From Saururus chinensis (lineage: Eukaryota; Streptophyta; Magnoliopsida; Piperales; Saururaceae), in NCBI GenBank assembly GCA_035235625.1, contig CP141146.1, forward strand, positions 5,760,501-5,824,500: a stretch of DNA of 64,000 nucleotides, written 5' to 3'. The first letter of the stretch is position 1. Each line of letters starts with the position of its first letter. The notes below the pieces were generated by a model. It was given only the letters and a program-made list of their open reading frames with translations. It did no database searches and was not told the DNA's origin. This document shows, piece by piece, positions 2,704 to 58,302 of this stretch. The position numbers and the translations under genes were made by a program.

Positions 2704-3613
2704 TTATTTATAGCATCTAATAATTCGGAGGTGGCTCAGCCTTGGCAATGCCCCTTCTTCCACTTCCCATTCTTCTAAATCACTTAAGCTTTCCAATGCT
2801 AAGAACTCAAGTCTTGGGAAACCTCCAGCAGAGCAGACAAGTCTGGTACCAGTGTAGGAATTAAACCCTAGTACCAGTATTCGAAGGTTGGGCAGGTGTT
2901 GTAGCTCTTCAAATGGGTCCATACCTAAATCAGACAACCGCAATTCTAGTTTGCTGAGTTGTGGAGGGAAATCATTAATTTCAATTTGGAGAGGAATCTT
3001 TACCCCGCAAGAAGAAGAATCGACGACGGTATACGTACCTGCTCATGAAAAAATACCTCCAAGAACCGGAGGTACTCCATTTTGGCAATGGAGTCAGAGA
3101 GATGCTCCGCTAGCCGTGAGTTAAAATAACCATAGTGAATGACCAGCTTTTTTAGATGAATCAGATTGTCAAAACTTTCATCCAACTCATTGTCCATAAC
3201 CCTGGTCATAGAGTCTGGACTCTGCTTGATTGAGGGAGCCCTCCAAGACTAATTGCCTGATCCGAAAGAATATTCTTCAGCGGCTTCCCCAAGAGTAAAT
3301 GTCTAAGTCGGGGCAACTTGCACACAAAGTGTGGCATGAACTTGACGTCACAAGGATCAACGTCTAAGGTTTCTAAATTGCTAAGATGTCTCATGGAAGA
3401 CGGAAAAAGTTTTATTCCAGTGTCTTTCAATCCCAAGTACCTTAGATGAAGCACCACTTCGTTGTCTTTCTGCATTGGATCAACTTCCTTGAGGAATGTT
3501 TTGATCATTGAGAGTTCGCCACGAAGCTGTTGCACATCTTCGTTCACTCCACGGAGGAAATGAACTTCATCATCAATCAACTTAGTTGTAAGAGGTTCCA
3601 AGATAACTTCCAT
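2704..3613 (-). pseudogene. CNL-A: collapsed CC-NBS-LRR gene (CC joined to LRR)
   Basis: Remains of a coiled-coil NBS-LRR (RPP13/Rx-type) immune receptor. Translation starts at the ATG at 3613 (MEVILEPLTT), the same start as in CNL-B and CNL-C. The first 54 residues match the Rx-type coiled coil. Near 3450 the reading frame then passes directly into the LRR part (HLRYLGLKDTG), so the EDVID region and the whole NB-ARC domain are missing. Compared with CNL-C this removes about 549 residues (1.65 kb). The frame stays open across the join and continues to about 3206 (PQSSRVQTL). Further LRR sequence appears in other frames down to 2704 (DPFEELQHLPNLRI, EEWEVEEGALPRLSHLRI). Without P-loop, kinase-2 and GLPL motifs it cannot act as a normal NLR. 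A short CC-LRR product is conceivable but not shown. Confidence 0.9.
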
Positions 3614-3639
3614 GTTTTTATGAAATTCCTTCAACTAAT

Positions 3640-5480: not shown

Positions 5481-6693
5481 AGCAAAAATATATTAGACTA
5501 TTTAGATACAAAGGACTCAAGAATCAAGTAGATACCTACTTTACTGAAATCTAGTGGTTGGTAATGTTAACTTTACTGACATTCACAAGCCATCTTTCCA
5601 CCATTATAAAATTTAAGACAATTAGCACAAACAACTACATTAAACTAAGTAAAGTTGGGATTACACAGAGAAGATCAATCGAAAGCAAAAGTTAGAACTG
5701 AAAATAGGCAAATTTTGTGTTGCATTTTACAAAAATAATAAACTCTTGTGAGCCAAAATATATATTTTCTATGTACTATATTAATCATTCTTTGACTTTT
5801 TAAAATAAGTTAATTCTAGTTTATTTTAAAAAATAAATAAACTATTAATATGAGATAAAAGGAGTATATATATAAGTCCGAGGGCAAGAAAATTTAGATT
5901 AGAGATGGATAATTAAGAATTAACCTGGAGACTCAGCGTGATCAGGTCGTGGCTCGCTTAAAACACAAGAAGTATAGTATCATAAACTGCACTCCTTAGG
6001 ATAATATAGCACGCTCATAACCTCCCGGATTGTTTGGATTTATCACTTCCAACTTCCAAGTGAGTGGCAATTCGGGTTATCCAGCTAGCTGGATGGCGAC
6101 AACTTGATAATGACCACCAGCTAGTGGGTGCTTTTCTTTTTTGAAAACGTTTATATGCATTTGGGCTTACGCGGACACACTTGAGCCCGATAATCATCTC
6201 ACAATGTAGAGTGGCAAAAATAAAATTTCTCACTCAGTTATGGCATTTGTTGGATCAAAATTCAACAACATGTAATACCCGTACTTACACAATTCTACGT
6301 GACCCTACAATTTAGGAGGATAAGATGCCTTGTAATATACTCTTAACCAAAGAGAGCAAAATTGAGGATAAGATGCCTTGTGTGACACTACAATACAAGA
6401 TGTTACAAATTAATTAAATGACTTTTCTGTTCATAAAGATTATACCACTTGACATTATTGTTGTACTCCTGCCAATAAAGGAGTACAACTTGTCAATAAT
6501 ACAAACCACTTGCATTATTGTTGTCGGATTCCTTTTTGATTGACTTGTCAAAATGTTCTTCTAGCTTTTACTCCCGCCAATCACCTTCCTTCCTTTCGCT
6601 TTTCAGCTGTCCTCTTTTTCTTTCACAATCCAACTTTTATTCTACCGTAAAAGTTCCAAATCGGAATGAGCTCGGAATGAGCTCCAACTATAA
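5481..6693. repeat. Dispersed block R1, copy 2
   Basis: Second copy of R1 (compare 600-1670). No gene seen. It is interrupted at 6693 by the long-TIR element and resumes at 8474, where the block continues in register with 1640-1780 and 19965-20110. Confidence 0.75.
5765..5864. mobile_element. Stowaway-like MITE (copy of 854-953)
   Basis: Same element in the duplicated R1 block, with the same flanks. It was therefore present before the block was copied. Confidence 0.55.
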
Positions 6694-6990
6694 GGGAAAA
6701 TTATTTAAATAATAATTTTTTAAAAAAAATAATTATCAAATCGACCTATTTTGGGAAATATTTCTTAAAATTGTGTTAGTTTTCGCCATACAGGCGCTAG
6801 CGAAGCAGCTGACGCCTACATGATTTTTTTTAAAAAAAATTAACTGATTTTGTCCTTTAGAACAACGAAATCAACTTTAAGTTGATTTCGTCATTTTAAA
6901 GGACGAAATTGTTTTAAAACAAATTAAGTGATTTCGTCCTTTAGAAGGACGAAATGATTTTGTCCTTCTAAATGACGAAATCACATATTT
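6694..6990 (+). repeat. Left TIR of element 1
   Basis: Inverted match to about 8190-8473. It contains at least three TTTCGTC/GACGAAA palindromes between 6850 and 6985, which could be transposase-binding subterminal repeats. Confidence 0.8.
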
Positions 6991-6994
6991 TTAA

Positions 6995-7440
6995 AAAAAT
7001 GCATGAAGTTGTCGTTGCTCTGTCGGATAGACGTCTTTATGATCTCAATGGCGTCCTCGGGCCAACGAGAGTGAGGATGTTGCAACGAAAGAGCATCGGT
7101 GCCGAAGCTGTGGTCGAAATCCCAGCGGAAGATCTCGCAGAAGGGCTATTGTAGAAGTGGAAGCCGTGGTCAGTGCCAACGGTGAAGCAGCTGTGGTCGT
7201 AGTTGAAGGAGTGGATGGTGCGGGTGCGGAGGGAAGAGGAGTCGAAGAAGTCGAGGGTAGAATTTTCAGGGGAATCCTAGAGGGGGTAAGGAGGGGAGGT
7301 GTGGATGGGAGGGGGGATGGAGAAACTCGAAAGCAAGGAACAAGAGTCGGGTCGGAGAGGAAGTTGTCTGGGTCCGGGTCGGGGTTGGTGGGATCGGGGC
7401 CGGAGAGGGGCGAGGGGGAGGTGGGCATGGAGAGGGAAAT
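6995..7440 (-). pseudogene. ATG18-like: Captured 5' exon of an ATG18/PROPPIN gene
   Basis: Reading the minus strand, a Pro/Asp-rich N-terminal stretch (PDPTNPDPDPDNF) is followed by HSFNYDHSCFTVGTDHGFHF, then FCEIFRWDF, then MLFRCNILTLVG, in different frames. This order and wording match the start of plant ATG18 WD-repeat proteins (SFNQDHxCFAVGTDxGFRI, FREIFRRDF, VEMLFRCNILALVG). These proteins bind PI3P and act in autophagosome formation. Only the low-complexity N-terminus and about the first blade are present. At least one frameshift separates the blocks, and the rest of the propeller is absent. The piece is GC-rich compared with its surroundings. The adjoining 7440-7620 may be captured leader or promoter. 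It ends at the left TIR of the transposon, so it is a captured fragment rather than a resident gene. Confidence 0.82.
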
Positions 7441-7619
7441 GGGCGGAGCTCAACAGTAGCTCACTCTTGAGACCTTCCTGTCGCCAGCCAGTTTTCTGAA
7501 TTGTGGGTCTGCTATATTTAGAGTCGGGCCTGTATTTAGAAGGGGTGCATCTAATAGAGGGAAAGAGGGTGGATACAAAGGATTTAAAAAAATTAAATCT
7601 TGTAGTTATATTCACTATG

Positions 7620-8190
7620 TAAATTCACAAAAATCCTTGTAAGTGCGGTGATTTCGGCGTTCACACATATTTACCTTTACGATGGTAAACATTGACAGAG
7701 TTGTTTTTCTCCTTTTTCTGTGGTTGGGTTTGTCAGTGGAACTGGGTTTTCCAGAATCCTTTCGTTAGTTTGAAATTTGGGACAATTGTATGGACTATGG
7801 AGTAAATTTTTTCCTTAGTCCATGGTCAAGATTCTTCTTCTGCCTCCGACGGTACCTTTCACCAACTTCTAGATAACTTTAAATGCTTTTTTTTCCAACT
7901 TAAGTTTACTTTAGAAGAATCCATTAAATGCCATGTAAGGAACAAGAGTTCAGACTTATTAAATGCATCCTTGATCGTTACCCTTCTCCCATTAATGCTG
8001 CACATTAAATTTTTTTTTACTTTTAAATATTTTTTTAATAACAGAAAGTGACAAATATTTTGTTAAGGTTATTTATTAATTATTTATATAATTAATTAAT
8101 TTCCTAGTAGGAAATACACCTTGTAGATTTGTAAAGAAGAAATTTGAGGAACTTTACTTCTAAAGTACTGCTCCCGATCGTGTTAGATTG
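7620..8190. other. AT-rich interior of element 1
   Basis: Between the ATG18 piece and the right TIR. It may be further captured non-coding sequence from the same donor. No protein pattern recognised. Confidence 0.4.
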
Positions 8191-8473
8191 AGTTTTTTTT
8201 AGAAATTCGTGTGATTTAAATCAACTTAACGTAATTTTGTAAAGGACAAAATCACTTAATTTATTTTAAAACGATTTTGTCCTTTAGAACTTAAGTTGAT
8301 TTTGTCGTTTTAAAAGATGAAATTAATTAATTTTTAAAAAAAAAAGCAACGCAGGTGCCAGCTGCTTCGCTAACACCTGCGTGGCGAAAACCAACACCAC
8401 TTTGGGAAATATTTCCCAAAGTGCGTCGATTTGGTAATTATTTTTTTAAAATTATTATTTAAATAATTTTCCC
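8190..8473 (-). repeat. Right TIR of element 1
   Basis: Reverse complement of the left TIR with moderate divergence. It contains GGTGCCAGCTGCTTCGCTAA and ends in AAATAATTTTCCC. Confidence 0.8.
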
Positions 8474-16950: not shown

Positions 16951-17880
16951 TATTAGTGACGCATAAGATATGTGTCACTGATACACTAGTTATTAGCGAC
17001 GCATAAAGTATGTGTGTCTACAATCTCTCTCTCTCTTCCTCTTCCTCTCTTTTCTCTCTCTCTCCCTCCCCTCTCTCTCTCTTCTCCCCTCTCTCTCTTA
17101 CCTTTCTCTCCTCTCCTCTCTCTCTCTTCCCCCCTCTCTTCCCTTTCTCTCCTATCCTCTCTCTCTTCCTCCCTCTCGGTTAAATAACCGCGCGGTCAAA
17201 AATCACCCGCGCGGTTAAAATTTTGCGCCCGCGCGAGTTAAAAAAACATATAGCTAGTTATTAGTGTCGCATAAGATATGTGTCACTGATACACTAGTTA
17301 TTAGCGACGCATAAAGTATGTGTGTCTACAATCTCTCTCTCTCTCTTCCTCTTCCTCTCTTTTCTCTCTCTCTCTCTCCCCTCTCTCTCTCTCTTCTCCC
17401 ATCTCTCTCTTACCTTTCTCTCCTCTCATCTCTCTCTCTTCCTCCCTCTCTTCCCTTTCTCTCCTATCCTCTCTCTCTTCCTCCCTCTCGGTTAAATAAC
17501 CACGCGGTCAAAAATCGCCCGTGCGGTTAAAATTTTGCGCCCGCGCGAGTTAAAAAAACATATAGCTAGTTATTAGTGTCGCATAAGATATGTGTCACTG
17601 ATACACTAGTTATTAGCGACGCATAAAGTATGTGTGTCTACAATCTCTCTTCCTCTTTCTCTCTTTTCTCTCTCTCCCCTCTTTCTCTCTCTTCTCTCTC
17701 TCTCTCTTCCTCTCTCTCCCTCTCTCTATCCTCTCTTTCTTCCCTCTTTTTCTCTCTCCTGATCTTCTCTCTCTACCCTATCTCCCCTCTTTCTCTCTCT
17801 CCTAATCCTCTCTCTTTCTCCCCTCATCTCTCTCTCTACCCTCCTCTCTCTCCCATCTCTACCCTCTCTCCCCTCATCTC
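16951..17880. repeat. 310-bp tandem repeat, three units
   Basis: TATTAGTG(A/T)CGCATAAGATATG starts at 16951, 17259 and 17571 (spacing 308 and 312). Each unit has TAGCGACGCATAAAGTATG, then a CT-rich tract. The first two units close with GGTTAAATAACC and GCGCGGT/GCGCGAG stretches; in the third the CT tract simply runs on. The first unit is preceded by a partial copy (about 16860-16950). Open frames in the CT tracts are low-complexity artefacts. Confidence 0.9.
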
Positions 17881-18640
17881 TCTCTCTACCCTCTCTCCCC
17901 TCTTTCTCTCTCTCTCCTCTCTCTCCCCTCATCTCTCTCTCTCTCCTCTCACTCTCTCTCCCTTCTCTCCATCTCTCTCTCCCTCTTTTTTTTTATTTTT
18001 GTTTAAAAAAATTGTAGTAGGCGACACATAACAGTATACGTTGCTACTACAAATGCATACCAGTATGCGTCACTACTATCTATTTTTTTATTTTTTAAAA
18101 TTTTCAAAATAATTTATTATTAAAAAAATTTCCTCCCCTGTTTCTCTCTTTTCTCTCTCTTCCTCTCTCCCTCTCTCTCTTCCCTTTCCCTCCTCTCTCC
18201 TCTCTCTCTCTCTTCCTCCCTCTCTTCCCTTTCTCTCCTCTCCTCTATCTCTTTCTTCCTCCCTCTATCTCTCCCCTCTCTCTCTCCTCTCTCTCTCTTC
18301 CTCCCTCTATCTCTCCCTCTCTCTCTCTCCTCTCTCTCTCTCCCCTCTCTCTCTCCTCTCTCTCTTCTCTCTTCCTCTCCCCTCCCTTCTCTCTCTCTCT
18401 CTTCATCTCTCTCTCTCATCTCTCTCTTTCTTCCCTCTCTCCTCCCGCTCCCCTCTCTCTCCCCTCAGTCTCTCTCCCTTGTCTGATCTCTCTCCTCACT
18501 CTCTCTCTCCCTCTCCTCACTCTATCTCTGCTCTCTCTCTCTTCTCCTCACTCTATCTCTGCTCTCTCTCCTCTCCTCTTTCTCTATGCACTCTCTCTTC
18601 CTCACTTCTTTCTCTTCACTCTCTCTCTCTTTTATTATAA
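17635..18640. repeat. CT-rich low-complexity tract
   Basis: About 1 kb of (CT)n, CCCTCTCTC and TTCC. It is broken once at about 18000-18120 by TAGGCGACACATAACAGTATACG-type CACTA repeats. No gene. Confidence 0.9.
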
Positions 18641-18660
18641 ATTATATTTTAAAATTAATA

Positions 18661-19340
18661 AAAAAAATTTTAAAATAAAATATATTATATTTAAATAGTG
18701 AAAGTTTAATCTATTATTGACACAGTCTTTCATTAAAAATTAAATATTTATACAAATAGTCAATATTGAAGAAAATATATTATATTTAAAATTTTTATTT
18801 TAATTTTTTTAATATTTATTATATAATTATTTATCCACGTTAATTATTTTCAAATACTGATTCTATCTCACATTAATTATTTAATTTGATTTTTAAAAAT
18901 AAATTAAAATTAATTAATTAATTTTTAAAAATTAAATAGAGTAATTAACGAGGGTTGAAAGGAATGCATCATATATAAAAAAGAAAATGTTTGTATGAGC
19001 CTTGGCTCACGTATGTTAGTGTGAGCCCATGTATTATGGGTCATCGGATCAAGATCCAATATGACAAAAAAACTAGTATGCCCTATGAATTATATGCACC
19101 GTTGGATTGAAATCTGATAATGCGTATGCATAGGCTTACACCAATCACATGAGCCATGGCTCATATAACAAGGTTTAAGTAAAAGAATAAGCTATTCAAA
19201 ATTGTGCCAATTCAACCGCTTTATGCGAAGACTAACGGCTGCCATGAGCCCATGACACTTTTAATATTTTTGTCACATCTTAAATTAAAATAGTCAATAT
19301 ATTGTCAAGAAAGCACACCTACAAGTTGTTAATTTTTAAT
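18661..19340. other. AT-rich spacer with MITE-like palindromic stretch
   Basis: Very AT-rich. 18985-19170 has inverted ends (ATGAGCCTTGGCTCACG and CATGAGCCATGGCTCAT) and a diverged relative at about 56160-56340. It is a probable small MITE. No coding signal. Confidence 0.5.
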
Positions 19341-25435: not shown

Positions 25436-25860
25436 CTATGAGAGTGGAACCAAACCCGGCCTAGAAGACGGCATATTCGGGAATGAACTCATCAGTGAGT
25501 CACCAGAATTGGGAAGCACAACCATGTTGAAGCGTATGTCAGCCCCCTTGAAGCCTCTTTCTTCGTAAGAAATGCACTCTGAGTTGAAATTCACAGAACG
25601 CCACTGGCAATGAAAATTGTTGTTCGAAGCAGTAGCTGGGAGCAAAGAAGCTCACCCTGCGGGTGAAGATGGAAGAGGAAACACTTGTATATTTGTCCCG
25701 ACAGAAGTCCCCATGCGTCAATGGCAATGGGATGGTAGAACTTGCCGCGGCTTCTCTTCTCGTAGTCCGAATTGGTGAGCACGTGGTCCTCGAAGTTAAG
25801 CCTGCTGTCGACCCTCTTCTCTCAGTAATTTCTTTAATTTGTCCGCGGAGGAATTGATTG
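25436..25860 (-). other. Conserved 3' tail shared by CNL-B and CNL-C
   Basis: Nearly the same as 44418-44840. In mixed frames it reads FEDHVLTNSDYEKRSRGKFY, HPIAIDAWGLLSGQIY and ADIRFNMVVLPNSGDSLMSS, which look protein-like but do not belong to the LRR. I do not recognise the family. It may be the end of another gene copied with the cluster, or an old 3' fusion. It is broken into frames in both copies. Confidence 0.5.
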
Positions 25861-28602
25861 ATAATTACGGATGCAACATGTTGGATCTTATAGTAATCCG
25901 CGCCCTCGCCTTCTTTCATCCTTGCATTGAAACTGTAGCCCATATTCTGCAGCTCTAATTTGTTGAGAGTTTTGATATGACGCAACCCTTCTGGCAGCAT
26001 GCGAAATTTGCTGCAGTCACGAATTCGGAGGTGGCTCAGCCTTGGCAATGCCCCTTCTTCCACTTCCCATTCTTCTAAATCACTTAAGTGTTCCAATGCT
26101 AAGAACTCAAGTCTTGGGAAACCTCCAGCAGAGCAGACAAGTCTGGTACCAGTGTAGGAATTATACAATAGTTCCAGTATTCGAAGGTTGGGCAGGTGCT
26201 GTAGCTCTTCGAATGGGTCTCTAGCTAATCGAGACCCATACAATTCTAGCTTGATGAGTTGTGGAGGGAAATCATGACGACCAGGTAGTTTATCCAACTC
26301 CCTATACAATTTCAATTTGGAGAGGAATCTTTTCCCCGCAAGAACAAGTTTCGACAATTGGATATTTCCCTGCACAAAAAATGCTCTCCAAGGGCCGAAG
26401 GTATTCCATTTTGGCAATGGAGTTAGAGAGATCCGCCGCTGCCCGTGAGTTAAAATCACCTTGAATGATAAGCTTTTTTAGATGAATCAGATTGCCAAAA
26501 CTTTCATCCAACTCATTGCCCATAACACATGCTCGTAGAGTATGGAGTCTGCTTGATTGAGGGAGCCCTCGAAGACTAATTGCCGGATCTGAAAAATAAT
26601 TTACGAATAAACTCTTCGTCTGCTTCCCCAAGAGTAGATGTCTAAGTCGGGGCAACTTGCACACAAAGTGTGGCATGCACTTGACGTCACAACCATCAAC
26701 GTCTAAGGTTTCTAAATTGCTAAGATGTCTCATGGAAGACGGAAAAACTTTTATTCCAGTGTCTTTCAATCCCAAGTACCTTAGATGAATTAGGTTACCG
26801 ATTTCCTTGGGTAAGTAGGAGATGCCTTCACCTACTAGATCAATCACCCTAAGCAACTTAAACCCTCCAAATAAATATTTGCACTCTGTCTTTCTTAAAG
26901 GATTATCAATCTTCTTGAAAGTCAAAATAGTACGTAGACATTCTGATGAACAGTTTTGAGAAACATACTCATGAATGGATACATTTGGAAGTAAAGATTG
27001 TCTACGTACAGACATGCTGCCCATTGAGTTGCTTCCGTCTGTCCCTTGTATAATATGGACAAAGTTTGCTTTTCGAGCTTCAAATACGCAAAAATCAAGT
27101 AATAGATCATGGATGCAGCATGATTTAACCCTACCATCGTACTTAATTTTCTTAATTTGAACCAAGCTTCTACGAGCAAGCTCTTTCAAGTATTCCTCGG
27201 CAGTTTCTTCTTTTGTTGCTTCTTCTCTTTCTTCGATGAACCCCTCTGCTACCCATAGTAATATTAATTTAGATGCATAAATCTTAAAATCTTCAGGGAA
27301 AACACTAAAATAGAGGAAACATGGTTTTAAGTAGTAAGGAAGATTATTGTAGCTCAAGGCTAATATTTCCCATATTTGAGTTTCACCTTCCAACAACTCC
27401 CATTTCATGCTTTTCCAAAGAGCATGCCATTCACTTGACTATTTCTCTCTTCTCCTCAAAATTCCTCCTAACACAGCCACTGCCAAAGGTAAGCCACCAC
27501 ACTTTTTCACGATTTTCTTCCCCAACTCTTCCAAATCTAAAGGACAATCAAGGACTCCATCCTCCATGAAAACCCTCTTACAAAATAGATCACAAGCCTC
27601 CTTATCATTCAGTACTCGTACTTTATAGGGAGACGTTTGAGGATTTGCATGCCTAGCTACCTCTTCTAACCGAGAGGTAAGTAGTACTTTGCCTCCATTT
27701 TCAACAAGTGGAAGTGTGTGTTTCAACATATCCTAATCCTTTATGGCCCACACATCATCAAGTACAACCAAGTATCTCTTACTACGAAGGTAGTCAGAGA
27801 GTTTTGTCCTCAACTCTCTATCATCCATCTTCCTTATCCTTTTCATCTCCTCTTCGTCTTGTTTATTTATACAATTGACATCTACCATAATATTCACTAA
27901 GAGCTCTCGCATACTAAATGATTGAGAGACAGTAACCCATATGCGATATTGAAAATGCTCCCTCACTAAATCACAATTGTAAATTTTCTTAGCAAGGGTT
28001 GTCTTACCTATTCCACCCATACCTATTAAGGAAACAATGGAGTTATGTGCATCTCCTTCAATGATCTTCTTCACCAATGATTGGGCTTCATTTTCCATGC
28101 CCACTACATCTCCTTCGACTTCCATGGATAATGCTTTTATCTCGGCATGGAATGGACTTTGGTTTGAGGAAGAAGCTCCATTTTTGTTGATGTGTTCAGG
28201 TTTGAACATTTCTTTATCTTTTGAAATTTGGTTGAACCTTTTTGTGATATCTTGAATTTCCTTCCCAACACTATGCACTGTCGGCAGTTGTTTTGTGCAT
28301 AAAATCCAACTTCTGGTTGTGCTTGAGAGCCCATATCTTCTTCGTTGTTGTATAGCAACTTCAAAAATGTATTTCTCAATCACATCCTCTGCTTTATACG
28401 CTTCCGCCTGAATTTGATTTAACCACTCTCTCTCCACTTTGCTATCTTTCTGCATTGGATCAATGTCCTTGAGGAATTCTTTGATCATTGAGAGTGTACC
28501 ATGAAGCCCTTGCACATCTCCCTTCACTCCATGGAGGAAACGAACTTCTTGTTCAATCCACTCAGTCAACTTAGTTGCAAGAGGACCCAAGATAACTTCC
28601 AT
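25539..28602 (-). pseudogene. CNL-B: broken CC-NBS-LRR resistance gene
   Basis: An RPP13/Rx-type intracellular immune receptor. The start is the ATG at 28602 (MEVILGPLAT). Order: coiled coil with EDVIE; P-loop GMGGIGKTTLAKK; kinase-2 LVVLDDVW; RNBS-B LLTSR; GLPL motif CGGLPLAV; RNBS-D CFLYFSVFPEDF; IHD in place of MHD; then about ten LRRs ending near 25900 (YYKIQHVASVII, a usual CNL end). Two in-frame stops lie in the NB-ARC: TAG at 27733-27735 just after kinase-2 (Trp in CNL-C) and TAG at 27439-27441 after RRREK (Leu in CNL-C). A frameshift near 26370 splits the LRR. No intron is needed. Otherwise about 85-90% alike to CNL-C by eye, so a recently lost gene. Confidence 0.93.
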
Positions 28603-30480
28603 GTTTTTTTTGAAGTTCCTTCAACTAATTGAGAAGGAAAGAAGCGACGCAAATTAAGAAGTATTTTCCTGTAATTGTAAGTAAAGGACTTTGTTAACCA
28701 AGTGAAACTTTGATTATAATATTGAAAATACATTTTAATATAAAAGAAGATGAGTTAAATCAATTCCATGCCTCGATAATTTGATAAGCATCTTCAAGAA
28801 ATTAGAATATATTTAATATAATCTAAGGAAGTATGTACTATTGGCCTGCCCCAGCAACATTACAATTAATATTGATTAAGGTTGTGACACAATAATAAAA
28901 GACCACTCCTTGCAATAATGTTGGTAGAAAGACCAAAAAAATATACTAAATGTTGTTTTTATCTACATTGAAGACCCCCTCCCCCACCCCACACACGGAC
29001 ACACGAATTCCTACCCCATTTCCCCAAGGTCATTTAGGTCCACCATAAGTGCACTCACAGAGGATCCAAACCGCCCTAAGGGCTCCATATGCTCAATTTT
29101 GTGCCATCCTGCATGCCAATAGCTGGATTGGTTTTGTTGATGGAATCCAAAAGGGTAAAGATATTATATTAAAAAAGGTGTCTAAGCTAGTTTGCCAGAT
29201 AAAACAAGTTGTGGGCATCCGTTGTTCGACTTCCATGCCGTGTCGTGTAGAATTTTTGTTGTCTATCAATTCCTGGACACAGCCATGGACAAAGAGCTTC
29301 AGTCATCCGTTTGTTGAAGGTTTAATTAATTTTTTATTCAGTTTGCACTCTTATATAAAAGATATTTTTTATTTCTATATAACTATCCTTAATTATTTTT
29401 TTTATAGAAAAAGTTAATATGTGTCGGGTCACATATTTAAAAATATGTGCCTGACGTATTGCGAGTTGTAGGATCGTCATCCAACAACTCGCATTAGATG
29501 AGGGGGGCATATAGGTGATAAAAACACACATTCCCCCTAAGTGACATTGTGCAACCCATATGCATTAGGAGCATGCACCAGGCAATATTAACGAGATTCT
29601 TTTCTTATACGTTAATTCTTAACAATTTAAATGCAATCAAGTTAATGTTACATTTTAGTTCTTTATTAGTGAATTACTATATCTATATAAGGCAAGTTCA
29701 ATAGTATACTACTATAAATAGAAAGGATAACATGTATAAGTCTAAATTGTTATTATATACTAAGTAACTTAATATAAGAATCTCCCCCCAGGCTGCCGCA
29801 CTAGGTAATACTTATCGGCGCCTCTCACGTTCTCGCTAGCTGCCCCAACTCTCATACAATTGCCCAAGAGGTTGCGCCATGATCATGTCTGCTAGATAAG
29901 TGGCTTTGTCCACACAAAAAAAGCTAGTAGATAAATTGTTAGCGGATACAAACACAAAGAAGACTTTTCTACTAGCTATTTCATCAAGGACCAACCCTTC
30001 TACTCGATGATAGGTGATTGCTTATAGGCACCTTTCTCTCACAATCTTTCCTCTTTTGAACCAAGATAGATGAGGCAAATTTCTTTTATGAAGAAATGTT
30101 AGGCAAAGAATTTACATGTGAAAATTAAAGACAACTAGTTTAAAAATAACCTGGCAATTTAGCGTACTCAGGATGTGGAGCACCTAGAACACAATGACCA
30201 AAGTGCGATAATTGAACTTCTTGGGATCGTTCTGCACCCTTATGACCTCCAGAGTATGGTTACTGTGTTGGAGCAAACTCCGTTGCATGTAACTCAAATT
30301 GTGAAAGAATACTTTGGGTTAAAACTCATAAAGATAAGGAAATAAGTGATGAGAGTCCCTTTGGAATAGCTGTGTATAAAGGAGTTCTGGAACTTGACTA
30401 CATAAATATATCAAAGAAAATTAATAAAGAAAAAATATATTAGTCTATTTAGATACAAAGGAACTAAATAACGAGGTTTC
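28603..30480. repeat. 5' flank of resistance-gene unit 2
   Basis: Matches 3620-5480 almost throughout. It is the presumed old promoter region of CNL-B. 29780-30030 is the copy of the partly open stretch at 4810-5070. No gene. Confidence 0.75.
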
Positions 30481-36094: not shown

Positions 36095-36818
36095 CCTTGC
36101 GAGCCGTCAGAACTCGCATTAGATGAGGGGGGCAGGTAGGTGATAAAAATACACCTACCCCTATGCATCAAGAGCATGCTCCTCAGTATGCACCAAGCAC
36201 ATATTTACGAAACTCTTTTATTATACTTGAATTCTTAAATGCAATCATGTTAATGTTACATTTTAGTTAGGGTTAGTTACTATATCTATGTAAGGCCACT
36301 TTGGCTTAGAACTCAAAAAGATAATAAAAGAAGTGATGTGAATCCCTTTGGAGTAGCTATATATAAATGAGTTCTCTACCAATTGGAACTTGACTATATT
36401 AATATAAAAAAAAAACTTAATAAAGCAAAAATATATTAGTCTATGGTGAATATCATCGATTAAAAACATCATGACCATGCCCATTTGCGAGGTAGGATCC
36501 TCCATGGGCACTAACCTTGTGTTCCAATTTTTACTCGCCTAAACAAGAATATAAACTCCCTTGTCTTATATTAATAGCTCTATTTGGTTTTTTAAAATAA
36601 AATAAATTTATTTTATTTTGAAAAGTTAAATAAAATTATTAATATGGGACAAAGATAGTATATATGTAAGGCAAAGAGTGAAAAAAATTACAAGTAAAAA
36701 ATAGAGATGGCTAGTTTGGAATTAGTTTGGGAGTCAGTGTGATTAGGTCATGACGCGCTTAAAGCACATCAAGTATAGTGTTGTAGCTACACTCCTTGGG
36801 ATTGTACTGCACACTCAT
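36095..36818. repeat. Resistance-unit flank and R1 remnant
   Basis: 36095-36300 matches 29460-29690, 36300-36450 matches 30330-30450, and 36700-36818 matches 1000-1110. It contains a Stowaway-like MITE. No gene. Confidence 0.6.
36556..36658. mobile_element. Stowaway-like MITE
   Basis: CTCCCTTGTCTTATATTAAT at the left and ATTAATATGGGACAAAGATA at the right form inverted ends close to the Stowaway consensus. The interior is AT-rich. Confidence 0.65.
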
Positions 36819-45141: not shown

Positions 45142-47549
45142 TCAGGTACCAGTGTAGGAATTATACCCTAGTTCCAGTATTCGAAGGTTGGGCAGGTGCT
45201 GTAGCTCTTCAAATGGGTCGCTAGCTAAATAAGACCACCGCAATTCCAGCTTGCTGAGTTGTGGAGGGAAATCAAGACGACCAGGTAGTTTATCCAACAC
45301 CCCATACAATTTCAATTTGGAGAGGAATATTTTCCCTGCAAGAAGAAGTATCGACGACGGGATACTAAACCGCCCATGACAAAATATCTCCAAGGACCGG
45401 AGGTACTCCATTTTGGCAATGGAGTTAGAGAGATCCGCTGCCCGTGAGTTAAAAACACCATGAATGACGAGCTTTTTTAGATGAATCAGATTGCCGAAAC
45501 TTTCATCCAAATCATTGTCCATAACCCTTGCTCGCAGAGTTTGGAGGCTGTTTGATTGAGGGAGCCCTCGAAGACTAATTGCCTCATCCGGCATCCGATA
45601 GGGATTCTTAACATGCCCCCTCACTAGTAGATGCTACAACGTTTAACGTCTAAGGTCTCTAAATTGCTAAGATGTCTCATAGAAGATGGAAAAACTTTTA
45701 TTCTAGTGTCTTTCAATCCCAAATACCTTAGATGAATCAGGTCCCCGAATTCCTTAGGTAAGTAGGAGATGCCTTCACCTACTAGATCAATCACCCTAAG
45801 CAACTTAAACCCTCCAAATAAATATTTGTACTCTGTCTTTCCTAAAGGATTATCAATGTTCTTGAAAGTCAAAATAGTACGTAGACATTCCGATGAACAG
45901 GTTTGAGAAACATACTCACGAATGGAAATGGATGCATTTGGAAGCAAAGATTGTCTACGTACAGACATCATACTGCCCATTGAGTTGCATTCGAGTGGCC
46001 CTTGTATAACATGGACAAAGTTTGTTTTTCGAGCTTCAAATACGCAAAAATCACGTAATAGATCATGGATGCCACATGATTTAACCCTACCATCGCACTT
46101 AATTTCCTTAATTTGAACCAAGCTTCTACGAACAAGCTCTTTCAAGTATTCCTCAGCAGTTTCTTCTTTTGTTGCTTCTCCTCTTTCTTCAATGAACCCC
46201 TCTGCTACCCATAGTAATATTAATTTAGATGCAGAAATCTTAAAATCTTCAGGGAAAACACTAAAATAGAGGAAACATGGTTTTAAGTAGTAAGGAAGAT
46301 GATTGTAGCTCCAGGATAATATTTCTCGTATTTGAGTTTCACCTTCAAACAACTCCCATTTCATGCTTTTCAAAAGAGCTTGCCATTCACTTGATAACTT
46401 CTCTCTTCTCCTCAAAATTCCTCCTAACACAACCACTGCCAAAGGTAAGCCACCACACTTTTTCACAATTTTCTTCCCCAACCCTTCCAAATTTGAAGGA
46501 CAACGAAGGACTCCATTCTCCATGGAAACCTTTTTACAAAATAGATCCCAAGCCTCCTTATCATTAAGTACTCGTATTTCATAGGGAGGGGTGTGAGGAT
46601 TTGCATGCATAGCTACATCTTTTGACCGAGAGGTAAGTAGTACTTTGCCTCCATTTTCTACAAGTGGAAATGTGTGTTTCAACATATCCCAATCCTTTAT
46701 AGCCCATACATCATCAAGTACAACCAAGTATTTCTTATTACTAAGGTAGTCAGAGAGTTTTATCCTCAACTCTCCTTCGTCCATCTTCCTTATCCTTTTC
46801 ATCTCCTCTTCATCTTGTTTATTTATACAATTGACATCTACCATAATATTCACTAAGAGCTCTCTCCTACTAAATGACCGAGAGACAGTAATCCATGAGC
46901 AATAATGAAAATGTTTCCTCACTAAATCACAACTGAAAATTTTCTTAGCAAGGGTTGTCTTACCTATTCCGCCCATACCTATTAAGGACACAATGGAGTT
47001 ATCTGCATCCCCTGCAATGACCTTCTCCACCAATGATTGGAATTCATTTTCCATGCCCACTACATCTCCTTCGACTTCCATGGATAATGCTTTTATCTCA
47101 GCATGGAAGGAACTTTGGTTTGAGGAACAAGGTCCATTTTTGTTGATGTGTTCGGGTCTGTATTTTTCTCTGTTATTTGAAATTTGGTTGAGCCTTTTTG
47201 TGATATCTTGAATTTTCATCCCAACACTATGCACTGTTGGCATTTGTTTGATGCATAAAATCCAACTTTTGACGATGCTGGTGAGCCCATAATTTATTCG
47301 TTGTTGTTTAGCAACATCAAAAATGTATTTCTCAATCACATCCTCTGCATTATACACTTCCGCCTTAATCTGATTTAACCACTCTCTCACCACTTCGCTG
47401 TCTTTCTGCATTGGATCAACTTCCGTGAGGAATGCTTTGATCATTGAGAGTTCACCACGAAGCAATTGCACATCTTCCTTCACTCCACGGAGGAAACGAA
47501 CTTCATGATCAATCAACTTAGTTGCAAGAGGATCCAAGATAACTTCCAT
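45142..47549 (-). pseudogene. CNL-C: CC-NBS-LRR gene with broken LRR
   Basis: The best preserved of the three resistance genes. From the ATG at 47549 a single 641-codon frame encodes: Rx-type coiled coil (1 to about 130, with EDVIE at 69-73); P-loop GMGGIGKTTLAKK (191-203); kinase-2 LVVLDDVW (275-282); RNBS-B LLTSR (304-308); GLPLA (367-371); RNBS-D CFLYFSVFPEDF (425-436); IHDLLRDF in the MHD place (494-501); first LRRs from about 585. It then stops at 45624-45626 after LETLDVKRCSIY. CNL-B continues there with MPHFVCKLPRLRHLL, so a small deletion has removed that segment and shifted the frame. More LRRs follow (45624-45142) up to another stop, where CNL-B has Arg after SYTGT. Residual LRR sequence reaches about 44950. 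A truncated CC-NB-ARC protein of 641 aa could still be made. Confidence 0.93.
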
Positions 47550-48440
47550 GTTGTTTATAAAGTTCCTAAACCTTAACGAGAAGGAAAGAAGTGATGCAAA
47601 GTAGTATTTTCCTGTAATTGTAAGTTAATGAATTTGTCAACCAAGTGAAACTTTGATTAAAATATTGAAAATACATTATAATAGAAGAGAAGATGAGTTA
47701 AATCGGTAATTTGATAACCATCTTTAAGAAGTTGGTAAATCTTTAATATAATCTAGGGAAGTATGTACTATTGGCCCGCCCTAGCAACATTACAATTAAT
47801 ATTGATTAAGGTTGTGGCGCAATGATAAAAGACCACTCCTTTCAATAATATTGGTAGAAAGACCGAAAAAATATTTTAAATGGTCATGGTTCTATGTTTA
47901 TCAATAGCTTGAGTTTTCTTGTTCTTGATTTTTTTTTATCTACATTGAAGACCCCCTCCCCCACCCCACACACGGACACACAAATTCCTACCCCATTTCC
48001 CCAAGGGCATTTAGGTCCACTATAAGTGCACTCACACTGGATCCAATTTGCCCTAAAGGTTCCATATGCTCAAATTTGGACCAGAGAAGTCCTATCTTGC
48101 ATGCCAATTGCTGGATTGGTTTTGTTGATGGGATCCAAAAGGGTGAACATATTAGATTACAAAAATTGACTAAGCTACTTTGCCAGGTAGAACTGGTTGT
48201 GGGCATCTGTCATCTAACTTCCATGCCATGTCTTGCAAAAGTTTAGTTGTTCATCACTTACTGGACACATCCATGGACAAAGAATCTCAATTGACTATTT
48301 GTCCAAGGTTTGATGAATTTTTAATGCAGTTTGCACTCTTACATAAAGGATTTTTTTTCTCTATAACTATACCTAAGTATCATTTTCTTATAGAAAAAGT
48401 TAATAAAGGATTTTTAATTTTCACTTGTAAGTAATAATAT
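47550..48440. repeat. 5' flank of resistance-gene unit 3
   Basis: 47570-48350 matches 28620-29400 and 3640-4440. It is the presumed promoter region of CNL-C. The match ends near 48400. Confidence 0.7.
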
Positions 48441-53045: not shown

Positions 53046-53397
53046 ATTGCTTAAAGTCTTTTGACAATCGTACCTATCGAAACGATACGTACGAAATGGG
53101 ATGTCTGAAATACTCGCTCAAGTTGTGTTTCATAAGTTTTAGAACATGTTGCGCTGGTTGACGTGTGAAAGGGCGACTTGACGCATTCGAACGAAAACAA
53201 CGTTATAGTCTACCCTCATCTAGTTCCAGGTTCAGATCTGATCGTGTCCACTACCTTATTGGCCGTGACGGGAAAAGCTTGTACTTAGTATTAGGCCTCG
53301 TATTCAGTTACGATATCTATCTTGTTCAGCAAATCAATTAATGTTTATGTCTCATATTAGTTATTTTATTTGGTTTTTAAAAATAAATTAAAATTTA
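53046..53397. repeat. R1-related spacer and MITE half
   Basis: 53110-53250 is similar to 150-290. 53350-53388 (GTCTCATATTAGTTATTTTA) is the left half of a Stowaway-like MITE whose right half (AAATTATTAATAAGGGACAG) is at 56100-56125, so the next transposon landed inside it. Confidence 0.55.
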
Positions 53398-53725
53398 GAT
53401 AAAATTATTTAAATAATAATTAAAAAAAATTATTTATTAAATTAACTCACTTTGAAAAATATTTCTCAAAGTAGTGTTATTTTTGCCATATAGGCGCGAA
53501 CCAAGCCGCTGGCGCCTGCGACTGTTTTTAAAAAAAATTTATATAATTTCATCATTTAGAACGATGAAATCAACTTTAAAGTAGATTTCGTCGTTCCAAA
53601 CGACGAAACCCTTAATTTTAAGTAATTTCATCGTTTAGAACGACAAAATCCGCTTTAAGTTGATTTCGTCGTTTAGAACGACGAAATCTGTGTACGTTTA
53701 AATTATTACCCAAATTACCCCATGC
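53398..53725 (+). repeat. Left TIR of element 2
   Basis: Inverted match to 55762-56071. It includes four or more TTTCGTCGTTTAGAACGACG-type palindromes between 53550 and 53695. Confidence 0.88.
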
Positions 53726-54160
53726 CGCGGTTTTTCCATCTGGCCCGGGTGGTGCTCAGCTTACGGGTTAGTGGTCGGCAAAATATTCCGAGGGCGTATA
53801 GTTTTCAAAAATACATGAGCACCAACCTATGCATCAAGAGCCAGTCCCTTCGGGAGTAGAACACCTCTTCCTTTCTCATCTTACTCGCCACCCTCATTAG
53901 CTTCGACCAAAACCCAGATCCAGTACCCTTCCTCAAGTCCTTTGTTGCCTCCCTCTCCCCTAACCTTTCCCTGTTCTCGGCTACCATAGCCAAGGCGGAC
54001 GTATACCTAGATGGTTCCTAATCGTGTCCCAGATGAAGTCTCTCTGCCCAGACCTCAGCTCCCAACCCGACATCTTCCACGGCATCCCCGCCTGCCTACC
54101 GGGCATTCGGGAGGGGTTCCAAGAGGGGTTCTGGGCCCAAATCGCGGTGCTGCGGCCGAT
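53726..54160. other. GC-rich captured sequence, donor not recognised
   Basis: Between the left TIR and the AAE promoter-like site. Frames on both strands look coding in composition (plus: PDLSSQPDIFHGIPACL; minus: GTGSGFWSKLMRVASKMRK), but I recognise no family. It may be a fourth captured piece. Confidence 0.4.
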
Positions 54161-54166
54161 TCAAAC

Positions 54167-54174
54167 TATATAAG
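54167..54174 (+). promoter_or_regulatory. TATA box, probably captured with the AAE start
   Basis: TATATAAG in CAAACTATATAAGAAC, followed by a CT-rich leader (CACCCTCATCTTCTTCAACC) that includes an exact 33-bp tandem duplication (TTCTGATTTCTCCCTTCCAA unit) at 54233-54299. The position about 220 bp upstream of the AAE ATG fits a captured core promoter. Confidence 0.5.
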
Positions 54175-54391
54175 AACTATTTCCACCCTCATCTTCTTCA
54201 ACCATCTTTCCCAAACCTCCTTTCTTCATCGTCTTCTGATTTCTCCCTTCCAATCTCTGGAGTTCTGATTTCTCCCTTCCAATCTCTGGAGTTCTGATCT
54301 TGCAGAATGGCACCATTCCCTCAGTCTCTTGTCCTTGTGATATTCTTCTCCTGTTTTACCTTGAACAGCAGTTTTGAAGTTCAATATACAG

Positions 54392-54515
54392 ATGGATCAG
54401 CTGCTCAAGGCCAACTACGTCCCCCTGACCCCTGTTACTTTCCTTGAGAGGGCAGCAGCCTATGTACACCAACTGCATGTCCATCGTATATGGTCGCAGC
54501 CATTTCTTCTTGGGC
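54392..54515 (+). pseudogene. Captured N-terminus of an acyl-activating enzyme (AAE)
   Basis: From the ATG at 54392: MDQLLKANYVPLTPVTFLER then AAA. After a frameshift comes TNCMSIVYGRSHFF. This matches the start of plant peroxisomal-type acyl-CoA synthetases of the AAE/benzoate-CoA ligase group (MDxLxxxxANYVPLTPxxFLERAAxVYGxxTSIVYGxxRFTW). These enzymes activate carboxylic acids to CoA esters. A second AAE piece follows at 55051, after an HCT piece. Confidence 0.85.
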
Positions 54516-54590
54516 AGTTTACTCCCGTGAATTCATCAACCCAGCATTTGGTGATTGAACTAACTGGTCCTAGTGCAGGAACAATATGCC

Positions 54591-55007
54591 AAGGTCTCCA
54601 TTGAGATCAAATCATCAACCATGGTGAGGCCGGCCAGTAAGACGCCACAAGAGAGGCACTGGATCTCGGACTTGGACCTCATTGTGCCGGAGTTCCACAC
54701 TCCCACTGTGTACATCTACCGCTAGCAGCCGGACAAGTTGTCCAACTTCTTCAACTCCAAGAGGCTCATGCAGGCGCTGGGGAAGGCCTTGGATCCATTC
54801 TACCCTCTGGCCGGGAGGCTGGTCAGTGGCGAGAATGGGCGCACTGAGATCGACTGCAACGGCGAGGGGGCGCTGTTAGTGGAGGCGGAGGCTGCCAGCG
54901 ATGTCAAAGGCTTGGGTGACTTGGTGCCGTCGTGGGAGCTGTTGAGCCTCATCCCCAAGGTTGATTACAATGTGGGACTCTCCTCTTTCCCATTGCTTGT
55001 GCTGCAG
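54591..55007 (+). pseudogene. HCT-like: Captured first exon of HCT (BAHD acyltransferase)
   Basis: Reads IEIKSSTMVRPASKTPQERH, then SDLDLIVPEFHTPTVYIYR, stop, then LMQALGKALDPFYPLAGRLV, GENGRTEIDCNGEGALLVEA and DYNVGLSSFPLLVLQ, followed by GTATAT. This is the first exon of hydroxycinnamoyl-CoA:shikimate/quinate hydroxycinnamoyl transferase, up to the usual exon-intron border after LLVLQ. The enzyme makes p-coumaroyl shikimate in lignin synthesis. One in-frame TAG (54723-54725) breaks it. The second exon with the catalytic HHxxD and DFGWG motifs is absent. The frame stays open for about 95 codons after the stop, so capture is fairly recent. Confidence 0.93.
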
Positions 55008-55050
55008 GTATATTCACATGCATGATTAATCAACTTTTCCACCATTTTCA

Positions 55051-55390
55051 ACTGATGTCGTCTCCGTGCTTGCGCATAATGTGTCGGCCCTCTACGAGAT
55101 GCACTTCACCATGCCAATGGCCGGGGCGGTGCTCAACTCCATCAACACCCGACTGCGTGCCAAGAATGTGGCCACTGTACTCTAGCACTCCAAGGCCAAG
55201 GTGTTGTTTGTGGACTATGAGTATGTCCCACTGGCCAAGGAGGCCTTCAAGTGGTTAATCAAGGAAACGGTCAGCTCGATGCCATTGATTGTCGTTGTTG
55301 ACGATGTTATGCTCCCATTGGTGTCCGGCCGAGGAAGCTAGAGTATGAGGAGCTCGTCTGGCTAGGGAAGCTGGAGTTCCAGGAGGGGTT
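55051..55390 (+). pseudogene. Captured second piece of the acyl-activating enzyme
   Basis: Reads DVVSVLAHNVSALYEMHFTM, then AGAVLNSINTRLRAKNVATV, stop, then KVLFVDYEYVPLAKEAFKWL, LIVVVDDV and, in another frame, KLEYEELVW. This matches AAE proteins (GDVVSVLAPNVPAMYEMHFxVPMAGAVLN..., FVDYxFVPLAREAL, ELEYExLV) in the region before the AMP-binding P-loop. It lies after the HCT piece on the same strand, so either one AAE gene received the HCT exon or two pieces were taken separately. At least one stop and one frameshift. Confidence 0.87.
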
Positions 55391-55482
55391 ACGGGCTGGA
55401 GCGGATCAATGACGAGGTCCGAGAGTGGATATGCGGGTCGACCAGGAGGCGGAGGGGACCGGGGTCCGTGCCGAGGAGGAAC

Positions 55483-55566
55483 TCGGACTTGGTCGAGGTG
55501 GCTGCCCTTGAGGGCCTCAGCTGTGGCGGCCCAGTTGAGGGGATCATGGCTCGGGCAAGCTAAGTC
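55483..55566 (-). pseudogene. PAL-like: Captured N-terminal piece of phenylalanine ammonia-lyase
   Basis: On the minus strand one frame reads DLACPSHDPLNWAATAEALK then GSHLDQVR. This is the conserved N-terminal segment of plant PAL (DPLNWGxAAEALxGSHLDEVKRMV), the entry enzyme of phenylpropanoid metabolism. The match covers 28 residues and then the text diverges (PPRHGPRSPPPPG), so the fragment ends there. It faces opposite to the AAE and HCT pieces. Confidence 0.85.
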
Positions 55567-55761
55567 ATGGCAGAGAGACTACCAGCGTTGTTAAAGAGGC
55601 TTTCCACTTCTTCTCTGTTTGAAATGAAGCAATAAGAAGGAGGAGGGGCTTTTTTCGTTGTGCATTTGTTAGTGCCATATCACGTGAATTTTACTGTGAG
55701 AAAAGAGCGGGAGAAAAGCATTTTCCCGCATGGGAGTAGAATCACATAGGAATTTAGTGGA

Positions 55762-56071
55762 GCATGGGGTAAGTTGGGTAATAATTTAAACGTACACAGA
55801 TTTTGTCGTTCTAAACGACGAAATCAACTTAAAGCGGATTTCGTCGTTTTAAACGATAAAATTACTTAAAATAAGGGTTTCGTTGTTTGGAACGACGAAA
55901 TCTACTTTAAATGAAATTATATAATTTTTTTTATTTTAAAAAAAGTCACGCAGGCGCCAGCGGCTTAGCTGGTACCTACGTGGCAAAAAGTAACATCACT
56001 TTAAAAAATATTTTCTAAAGTATATTAATTTGGTAAATAATTTTTTTAATTATTATTTAAATAATTTTCTT
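55762..56071 (-). repeat. Right TIR of element 2
   Basis: Reverse complement of 53398-53725, ending in ATTTAAATAATTTTCTT. Confidence 0.88.
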
Positions 56072-56080
56072 TAAAATTAA

Positions 56081-58302
56081 TTTATTTAATTTTAAAAATA
56101 AAATAAAATTATTAATAAGGGACAGAGAAAATATATTATAATATATAAAAAAATTTATATAAGCCTATATTTATATGTGTTAATGTGAACTCGTTCATTC
56201 TGGACTATTGGCTTGAGATCTGACTTGCTAGAAGTACATAATTTAATATACCCTATGAGTTATATACTACTGGATTAAAATTTGATGGTGCGTGTGCTTA
56301 AGCTCACGGCAACCACATGAACTCAGGTATAAGTAAAAAAGTTAAAAAGTCGATGAACTGCTGCCATGATCCAATGACACTATTTTAATATTTTTTCCGC
56401 ACCATACGTTTAAATAATCAAACACACCAACAAGTTGTTAATTTTAATGGGAAAAAAAGGTAGGTGACCTTGCAAAGGAAGATGGGAGCTAGGTCAAGGA
56501 ACGAACTTGATAGCAAATAAATAAGAATTAAGTAGATACTTATAATATGGAAATTATAGGCCAAAGAAGAGAAACCAGAATATGCCACGACCTTTCACAC
56601 TTCATCAAAAGGTTTTAAGTGCACTGGCGTGAAATAGTCTGAACGCCATTTCCCTTCCCACCCATCATTTTGCTTTTCAACACTTTAAAAAATTTAGATC
56701 ACATATTTATATGTAATTGTAAATTTAAAAAATTCAGAAACAACTTTACAACTAAAAATTAAAAAATTGCCTGAAATTTGACATATAATCAAGTGACATT
56801 GACCTTCGCCAGAGCCCAACGCCTAGTTGCGATATCTCTTACCAACAGCCCGGCGGCAACCCAAAAATTTGGCAGCCGCCTAAAAAATCGTTAGCTGACC
56901 TATAAGTCTTGTGGCCATTTGGTGGCGATGTCTGTGCTAGCAGCTAAAAAACTTTCAGTTGTCGCCTTTCGCCATTGTTACAAACCTAGCCTCAATACCA
57001 ATTGATGGAGCAAGATACAAAAAAATTGGGCTTACTTTTAACCATTAGAGCCCGAACAACGTTTTATCCCTTTAATGAAACTTTTCCTATGTTAATCTTT
57101 TATAAATTTTCACAATGTGTTATTTTCGTTTGGTAAAATTACCTGATTGTGTCAATGAAACCGCTAGTGAAGAGGCAGAAAGGAAGGGCAGGAAATCCAT
57201 TGTGCCGTTGCCAGGGTATTGGAGGAGACCCTATCATCAATCCGGTATACCACCTTCTGCTGGCTTGGGAACCAGGTCATGTCTGCAAACTCATGTTGCT
57301 TGCTACTGATTTCCCCACTTCCCAGCAGGTTTCGATCTCTCCACGCTCTTCTACGATTGGCTTGATCCATAAGAGTTTGTCATTCATTCATGAATTTCAT
57401 CTAAATTTTTTTAAATATGAAACTTAATTAGGTAATAATAGGCATTCTACATTACAACGCAACAAACTTAGATACAAGGTAACAAGGCCACTGAATGTAA
57501 GTTTTAAAGGAAGAAAAGGCTTCCTTGATTGAGAGTTTTTCATTAATTGGATATAAATAAAAAGATGTTTTTAACATTTTGCAAGGGCAATAGAAGAAGT
57601 CTCTGATTAGTATGCATCCAAATGCGTATGCTAGGGCATGTCTCAGGTGCATTTTGCGTAATTGGATCATGTTTACCCCATCATATCGAGATCCAACAAC
57701 TCCATGTGACAGAGTGAGATGCATGTTATTTTTCTTCATAAAAAAAGTGAGCGTAGGGCATGTAAGTCGTTTTATTGAGATCTGATGACGCGCATCAACA
57801 GAGGAGGCGGGCAACCGATTGAACCACCTGCCCCATGGGAATATAGTAACTAATATAGTGTTGGAATAGAAAGTACTATTTAACATTAAATTAAATGAGA
57901 CGATATCATAAAGTTGTCTTATTAAAGTGAATGAGACAAAAAAATCTACTGTGACTAGTGCTACTGTGAAATGATGAAGTAAAGTTGACATGTAAAAGTT
58001 AATGTTACTCCAACATTTTTCTTCATAGGAAGGTTTAAATAAAAAAATCAAGAAAAGTGGGCTCATGCTTTGACCCTTAAGTATGGTAGCCATGTATATT
58101 CTTTTATTTTTTAAAATTTTAATAAATAATATAGAACAAAAGAGAGAGTGGGGAGAAAGAGAGAGAAGAGAGAGAAGGGGAAGAGATAGGTAGAGAGAGG
58201 GAGAAAGAGAAAAAAAGAGAGAGGAGAGAGAGAGGGAGAGAGAAGAGAGAGGAGAAAAAGAGGGGGGAGAGAAAAGAGGGGGATAGAGTAGGAGGAGAGA
58301 GA
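56081..58302. other. AT-rich spacer with repeat remnants
   Basis: 56160-56340 is a diverged relative of the MITE-like stretch at 18985-19170. 56520-56690 matches 310-480. 57115-57420 is a GC-richer stretch with open frames on both strands and no known protein. 57452-58093 has a 213-codon minus-strand frame with low-quality, AT-driven content. 58130-58300 is GA-rich low complexity like that inside the CACTA elements. Confidence 0.45.

Follow-up and report, generated by a model that had tools for sequence, protein, structure and literature searches.

A 2.7-kb interval of the Saururus chinensis genome, positions 53398-56071 of the window analysed here (64,000 nucleotides of contig CP141146.1, assembly GCA_035235625.1, positions 5,760,501 to 5,824,500 of the forward strand), is very probably a Pack-MULE, that is, a non-autonomous Mutator-like transposable element (MULE) holding pieces of host genes between its terminal inverted repeats (TIRs). 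The pieces derive from at least three genes, those for HCT, for an acyl-activating enzyme (AAE, an acyl-CoA synthetase) and for PAL. Read in this way, the element has well-defined ends, several donors, an exact empty site and a capture layout that can be read in part, and would serve as a useful example of repair-based gene capture. All coordinates below are those of the window.

Inverted repeats, target-site duplication and empty site

A preliminary description of this DNA had proposed inverted repeats of about 310 bp, and alignment confirmed that they are true inverted copies of each other. The left TIR (53398-53725, plus strand, 328 bp) and the right TIR (55762-56071, minus strand, 310 bp, with about three palindromes) agree in 275 of the 303 columns aligned without a gap, and their local score of 440 compares with a maximum of 71 among 300 dinucleotide shuffles. 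With the flanks included, the alignment has 324 identical columns out of 401; the similarity extends beyond the TIRs because the element sits inside a short miniature inverted-repeat transposable element (MITE). The ends of the element read GATAAAATT and AAGAAAATT. The outer edge of the left TIR was set by the target-site duplication (TSD) and by alignment to the GGGAAAATTATTTAAATAATAATT end of element B, a second member of the TIR family at 6694-8473 that has GGG...CCC ends, GGGAAAATTATTTAAATAATAATT termini and a different GC-rich interior. The alignment to element B returned the same start and end, 53398 and 56071, that had been proposed before. The arms of element B itself, measured on 6694-6999 and 8194-8472, are identical at 229 of 272 ungapped columns.

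The element is flanked by a 9-bp TSD, TAAAATTTA at 53389-53397 and TAAAATTAA at 56072-56080 on the plus strand, with one mismatch in nine between the copies. When a single copy is retained, the joined flanks form an ungapped empty site and rebuild a short MITE that has four further copies within the window. We aligned the joined flanks, with 56081-56140 included in the query, to the stretches 18830-18970, 36530-36680, 830-980 and 5740-5890, where the MITE copies matched lie at 18850-18954 (82% of 105), 36562-36663 (81% of 106), 849-948 (77% of 104) and 5760-5855 (76% of 104). All four scores (130, 128, 114 and 102) exceed the best of 300 shuffles (79, 72, 68 and 66, respectively), and the 103-column alignment to the copy at 18850-18954 crosses the junction ungapped. 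Other matches to the joined flanks in the window are weaker and AT-rich. The two halves of the interrupted MITE, which is presumably Stowaway-like, lie at 53336-53397 and 56081-56137 on the plus strand. Since the joined flanks rebuild a MITE having four other copies in the window, the ends of the element are fixed. The element would have inserted into this MITE, making the 9-bp duplication.

The combination of TIRs, 9-bp TSD, empty site and host-gene pieces bears out the Pack-MULE reading suggested earlier. Pack-MULEs carry mutually inverted TIRs of about 100-500 bp, here 328 and 310 bp; a TSD of 9-11 bp with at most two mismatches, here 9 bp with one; and fragments of host genes, here of HCT, AAE and PAL by protein homology. 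Among nine plus four translated interior pieces, covering all but a few residues at the piece ends, no transposase family was found in Pfam, so the interior also lacks a transposase of its own, as a Pack-MULE should.

The captured gene pieces

The order and strand of the four gene pieces that had been noticed from the letters, namely AAE, HCT, AAE and an inverted PAL, were borne out by protein homology. The HCT (BAHD) exon 1 occupies 54594-55007 on the plus strand, starting where the initiator codon would stand and reaching as far as LLVLQ, and contains one in-frame TAG (54723-54725). It matches the Pfam Transferase family (E 1e-28), and its best rows in the PDB are HCT structures (4g22 and 4g0b, E 1.2e-45), the first of which we take to be from coffee; 81 of 137 aligned residues are identical to 4g22, and among the 19 PDB rows the ten best all belong to hydroxycinnamoyl transferases or rosmarinate synthase. 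The homology begins at the position of the initiator methionine, where GTC now stands, and ends after LLVLQV at the splice donor CTGCAG/GTATAT. The claim of a complete HCT first exon calls for one minor amendment, in that the initiator methionine is not conserved. The following segment, 55008-55053 on the plus strand (GTATAT..., GC 30%), is the start of HCT intron 1. As the resemblance to the protein goes no further than the donor site, genomic DNA must have been captured; a retrocopy, or processed pseudogene, is ruled out by the retained splice donor and the AT-rich non-coding sequence after it.

The AAE pieces lie on either side of HCT. The N-terminal piece (54392-54523, plus strand) begins with an ATG at 54392 and carries ANYVPLTPVTFLERAA at 54410-54457 and, by eye, TNCMSIVYGRSHFFLG at 54468-54515 after a one-base frameshift. 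Its sole NCBIfam match is PRK08162 (E 0.0036, profile positions 13-31). In a tblastn search, five of six bacterial proteins tested matched it, and 13 of 16 residues are shared with L033, an acyl-CoA synthetase from Azotobacter (E 7.7e-5 when only the interior of the element was searched). A VYG motif stands 28 nt past the first AAE block, where 27 nt would be expected from protein L031, a spacing that by eye suggests the one-base frameshift; the frame-shifted VYG stretch alone matched no AAE family in NCBIfam or Pfam. The second AAE piece (55054-55385, plus strand), which follows the first in gene order, has an in-frame TAG at 55183-55185 and a frameshift later. Its best NCBIfam family is again PRK08162 (E 5.4e-21, profile positions 70-141); it also matches Pfam AMP-binding (E 7.5e-8), acyl-CoA ligases in the PDB (from E 4.5e-6) and sequences in 132 plasmid records. 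Its final stretch, 55332-55379 (RKLEYEELVWLGKLEF), was assigned by eye against L031 and has no NCBIfam match alone. Between the first AAE piece and HCT runs a link segment at 54524-54593 (plus strand), whose end is the start of HCT homology.

The N-terminal PAL piece is inverted (55483-55545, minus strand, DPLNWAATAEALKGSHLDQVR). Seven of eight rows returned for a 77-residue query are PAL (E 0.012), as are all seven rows for a 32-residue query (E 0.0014), and the piece scores 31.6 bits, whereas none of 500 shuffled interiors scored above 10.6, in a search that covered the rest of the window as well. No Pfam family was matched by it.

A TATA-like box (CTATATAAG, 54166-54174) and a pyrimidine-rich leader span 54166-54391 on the plus strand. 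As the leader abuts the AAE start ATG after CAATATACAG, it is possibly the AAE gene's own promoter and 5' untranslated region. The leader includes a perfect 29-bp tandem duplication at 54234-54291, which is apparently recent, given that the rest of the element is decayed. The remaining interior comprises a GC-rich segment of about 440 bp at 53726-54165 (GC 54.8%), for which neither Pfam nor NCBIfam returned a family and, of two PDB searches, one gave a single unrelated row (E 0.18) and the other nothing; a very GC-rich stretch at 55386-55482 (GC 66% for 55381-55483); and a tail at 55561-55761, the last two with no family above the cut-off. Pfam rows below the cut-off, DUF5981 (E 0.053) and Acyl-CoA_dh_N (E 0.091), were set aside. 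The interior has a GC content of 52.5%, compared with 28-30% for the TIRs and 34% for the 1-kb flanks. Such a high interior GC is expected from the preference of Pack-MULEs for GC-rich sequence (PMC3310237; PMC4858842).

How the pieces may have been captured

The two AAE pieces lie on the same strand in gene order, and HCT fills the gap between them. By tblastn they correspond to residues 15-30 and 71-149 of L033 and to residues 21-36 and 77-156 of L029; between the supported blocks 38 profile positions (32-69) are absent, or about 20 if the VYG stretch assigned by eye is counted. The pieces are therefore probably one captured AAE gene interrupted by HCT, with 20-40 codons lost between them; two separate AAE captures are disfavoured by this collinearity. 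In the sequence of events that we propose, the element would first have taken up the 5' portion of a single AAE gene, perhaps together with its promoter. HCT exon 1 would later have served to fill a break or gap within this AAE segment, at the cost of the 20-40 AAE codons, and at another place in the element the 5' end of a PAL gene would have been copied in the opposite orientation.

Alternatively, one repair event that left the AAE template for HCT and then returned to AAE could have produced the same pattern. Capture of HCT, AAE and PAL in one multi-switch event is a serious contender, if the less favoured one: the HCT piece does lie inside a collinear AAE segment that lost 20-40 codons, but successive captures give an identical layout.

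Coding capacity and possible effects through RNA

The HCT and AAE frames are broken by in-frame stops, frameshifts are present, and the longest ATG frames in the element, two in number, have 85 codons. We therefore reject a chimeric enzyme translated from an unspliced transcript, and the element, which is decayed, is most likely inert as protein. Any effect of the element would act via RNA. Regulation of the parent AAE, HCT or PAL genes by a transcript or by small RNAs of the element is unlikely, in spite of the TATA-like box with its leader and the strong fold of the TIR palindromes, because pieces that look as decayed as these, with their stops and frameshifts, may retain few 21-24-nt stretches that still match the parents almost exactly. 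A review describes the captured sequence of maize Pack-MULEs and other elements as a reservoir of small interfering RNAs that can silence the donors (PMC13317346).

The apparent pathway theme

PAL and HCT act in the same pathway. The many members of the AAE family have varied substrates and include cinnamate- and benzoate-CoA ligases. Given this variety, a phenylpropanoid role of the captured AAE gene is an assumption. An informal estimate, which was not computed, puts the chance that two further donors come from the same gene set at the order of 1e-4 per three-donor element if that set makes up about 1-2% of the genome, and this value rises with GC and expression bias and with the freedom to call themes coherent.

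That the pieces share a pathway is most likely a coincidence combined with the bias for GC-rich, hypomethylated parents. Multi-donor Pack-MULEs and GC-rich capture are already documented: the parents of MULE-derived genes are GC-rich and hypomethylated, and in O. sativa japonica 264 of 1186 parent-assigned MULE-derived genes have two or more parents (PMC4858842). With multi-parent elements this common, some of them will look coherent. The donor sets of Pack-TYPE elements show functional enrichments, which, in the part of the source available, are not of the pathway kind (PMC8903248). A literature search, with subscription papers mostly outside its scope, returned no Pack-MULE carrying genes of one pathway.

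We regard it as very unlikely that the link is real in the sense that co-expressed phenylpropanoid loci lie close in the nucleus and are sampled together by repair template switching. In its favour, besides the pathway shared by PAL and HCT and the known specificities of some AAE-type ligases, are the preference of capture for hypomethylated, recombinogenic parents (PMC4858842) and the AAE-HCT-AAE order, which fits a switch out and return. However, this is a single element whose theme was noticed post hoc, one or more other segments lack a recognised donor, and genes of this sort are favoured in any case by the general bias towards GC-rich sequence. The wider proposition, that MULE capture samples co-active loci and that this element records switches among co-expressed, spatially close phenylpropanoid genes, is very improbable. 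If it were true, multi-donor Pack-MULEs could preserve, like fossils, a record of which active genes lay close together in the nucleus. Donor co-expression beyond the GC and methylation bias, if found genome-wide, would tell how capture picks its templates, which one element cannot.

Class assignment and relation to known elements

Several observations weigh against the assignments made above. At its extreme ends the element has degenerate triplets, GAT and AAG, where element B has GGG. The TSD alone is weak, since 35 of 3660 offset pairs in the AT-rich flanks match equally well, and by eye element B has no matching 9-bp TSD in its flanks (CAACTATAA and AATTTTAAA). For the first AAE piece, the profile score of 10.0 bits exceeds by a modest margin the highest value among 100 shuffled interiors (5.8 bits), a PDB search missed it and gave a single unrelated row, one bacterial protein (L034) failed to match it, and three of the five that did are near-identical and come from Azospirillum. 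Eight Bacillota AAE relatives gave either E values of 2.6-3.4 (four) or nothing at the right place (four), while the same eight do match the second AAE piece. The PAL assignment is based on about 21 residues, and the identities of AAE, HCT and PAL come from protein homology.

That the interval is a Pack-TYPE element of another kind, or that pseudogenes came to lie between repeats by chance, is scarcely credible: the outer flanks, being themselves an inverted-repeat MITE, could mislead, but the TIR score lies far above the shuffles, the TSD is 9 bp long, the empty site is exact and element B has the same ends. Helitrons are not known to have TIRs or a TSD, in contrast to the long TIRs and the TSD found here. 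Pack-CACTA elements have CACTA termini and a 3-bp TSD, and are likewise rejected by the ends GATAAAATT and AAGAAAATT and the 9-bp TSD. The TSDs known for the superfamilies of Pack-CACTA, Pack-Mariner, Pack-hAT and Pack-PIF are shorter than 9 bp.

The closest known elements are the Pack-MULEs of rice, tomato and maize, reportedly described by Jiang et al. in 2004. The present element shares with them the long TIRs, the 9-11-bp TSD, the non-autonomous state and GC-rich gene fragments, sometimes from multiple parents, and differs in combining at least three recognisable donors with segments without a family match in 2.7 kb, and in its apparent pathway theme. TIRs of 100-500 bp and TSDs of 9-11 bp are given for MULEs, and a preference for GC-rich sequence for the Pack-MULEs of rice and maize, in PMC3310237. 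Pack-CACTA, Pack-Mariner, Pack-hAT and Pack-PIF elements are also DNA transposons with captured coding DNA, sometimes from several loci (PMC8903248), from which the Saururus element is set apart by its lack of CACTA ends, its long TIRs and its 9-bp TSD. With the animal Pack-TIRs, explained by gap filling or fork switching (PMC8277862), it shares a patchwork interior compatible with repair template switching, the difference being its plant origin.

TIR palindromes and other features of the window

The left TIR contains an array of about four palindromes of about 26 bp with a period of about 38 (53546-53689; 3.7 copies by TRF), whose DNA fold has a z score of -8.7. Related sequence is present in element B, and the palindromes are possibly transposase-binding or fold-back sites. 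A 25-base pattern of the TIR palindromes had no matches in viral_contigs. The array of about three palindromes of about 26 bp in the right TIR lies at 55799-55912, and both arrays are of the TTTCGTCGTTTAGAACGACGAAA type. In the interior of element B, three translated frames of 7043-7459 gave no Pfam family match. The right flank of element B weakly resembles half of the interrupted MITE (50 bases, 78%).

Elsewhere, the window holds a cluster of CC-NB-LRR resistance genes on the minus strand (25542-28620, 45145-47624 and 3209-3634; Pfam Rx_N, NB-ARC, WH_DRP and LRR), in which the copy at 45-47 kb has an open frame of 666 codons and the other copies are split across several frames. An exon-like frame at 40545-40886 matches pyridine nucleotide-disulphide oxidoreductase and is, we presume, perhaps a monodehydroascorbate reductase. 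A long low-complexity CT-rich stretch at 17627-18698 contains several forward frames rich in Ser and Leu.

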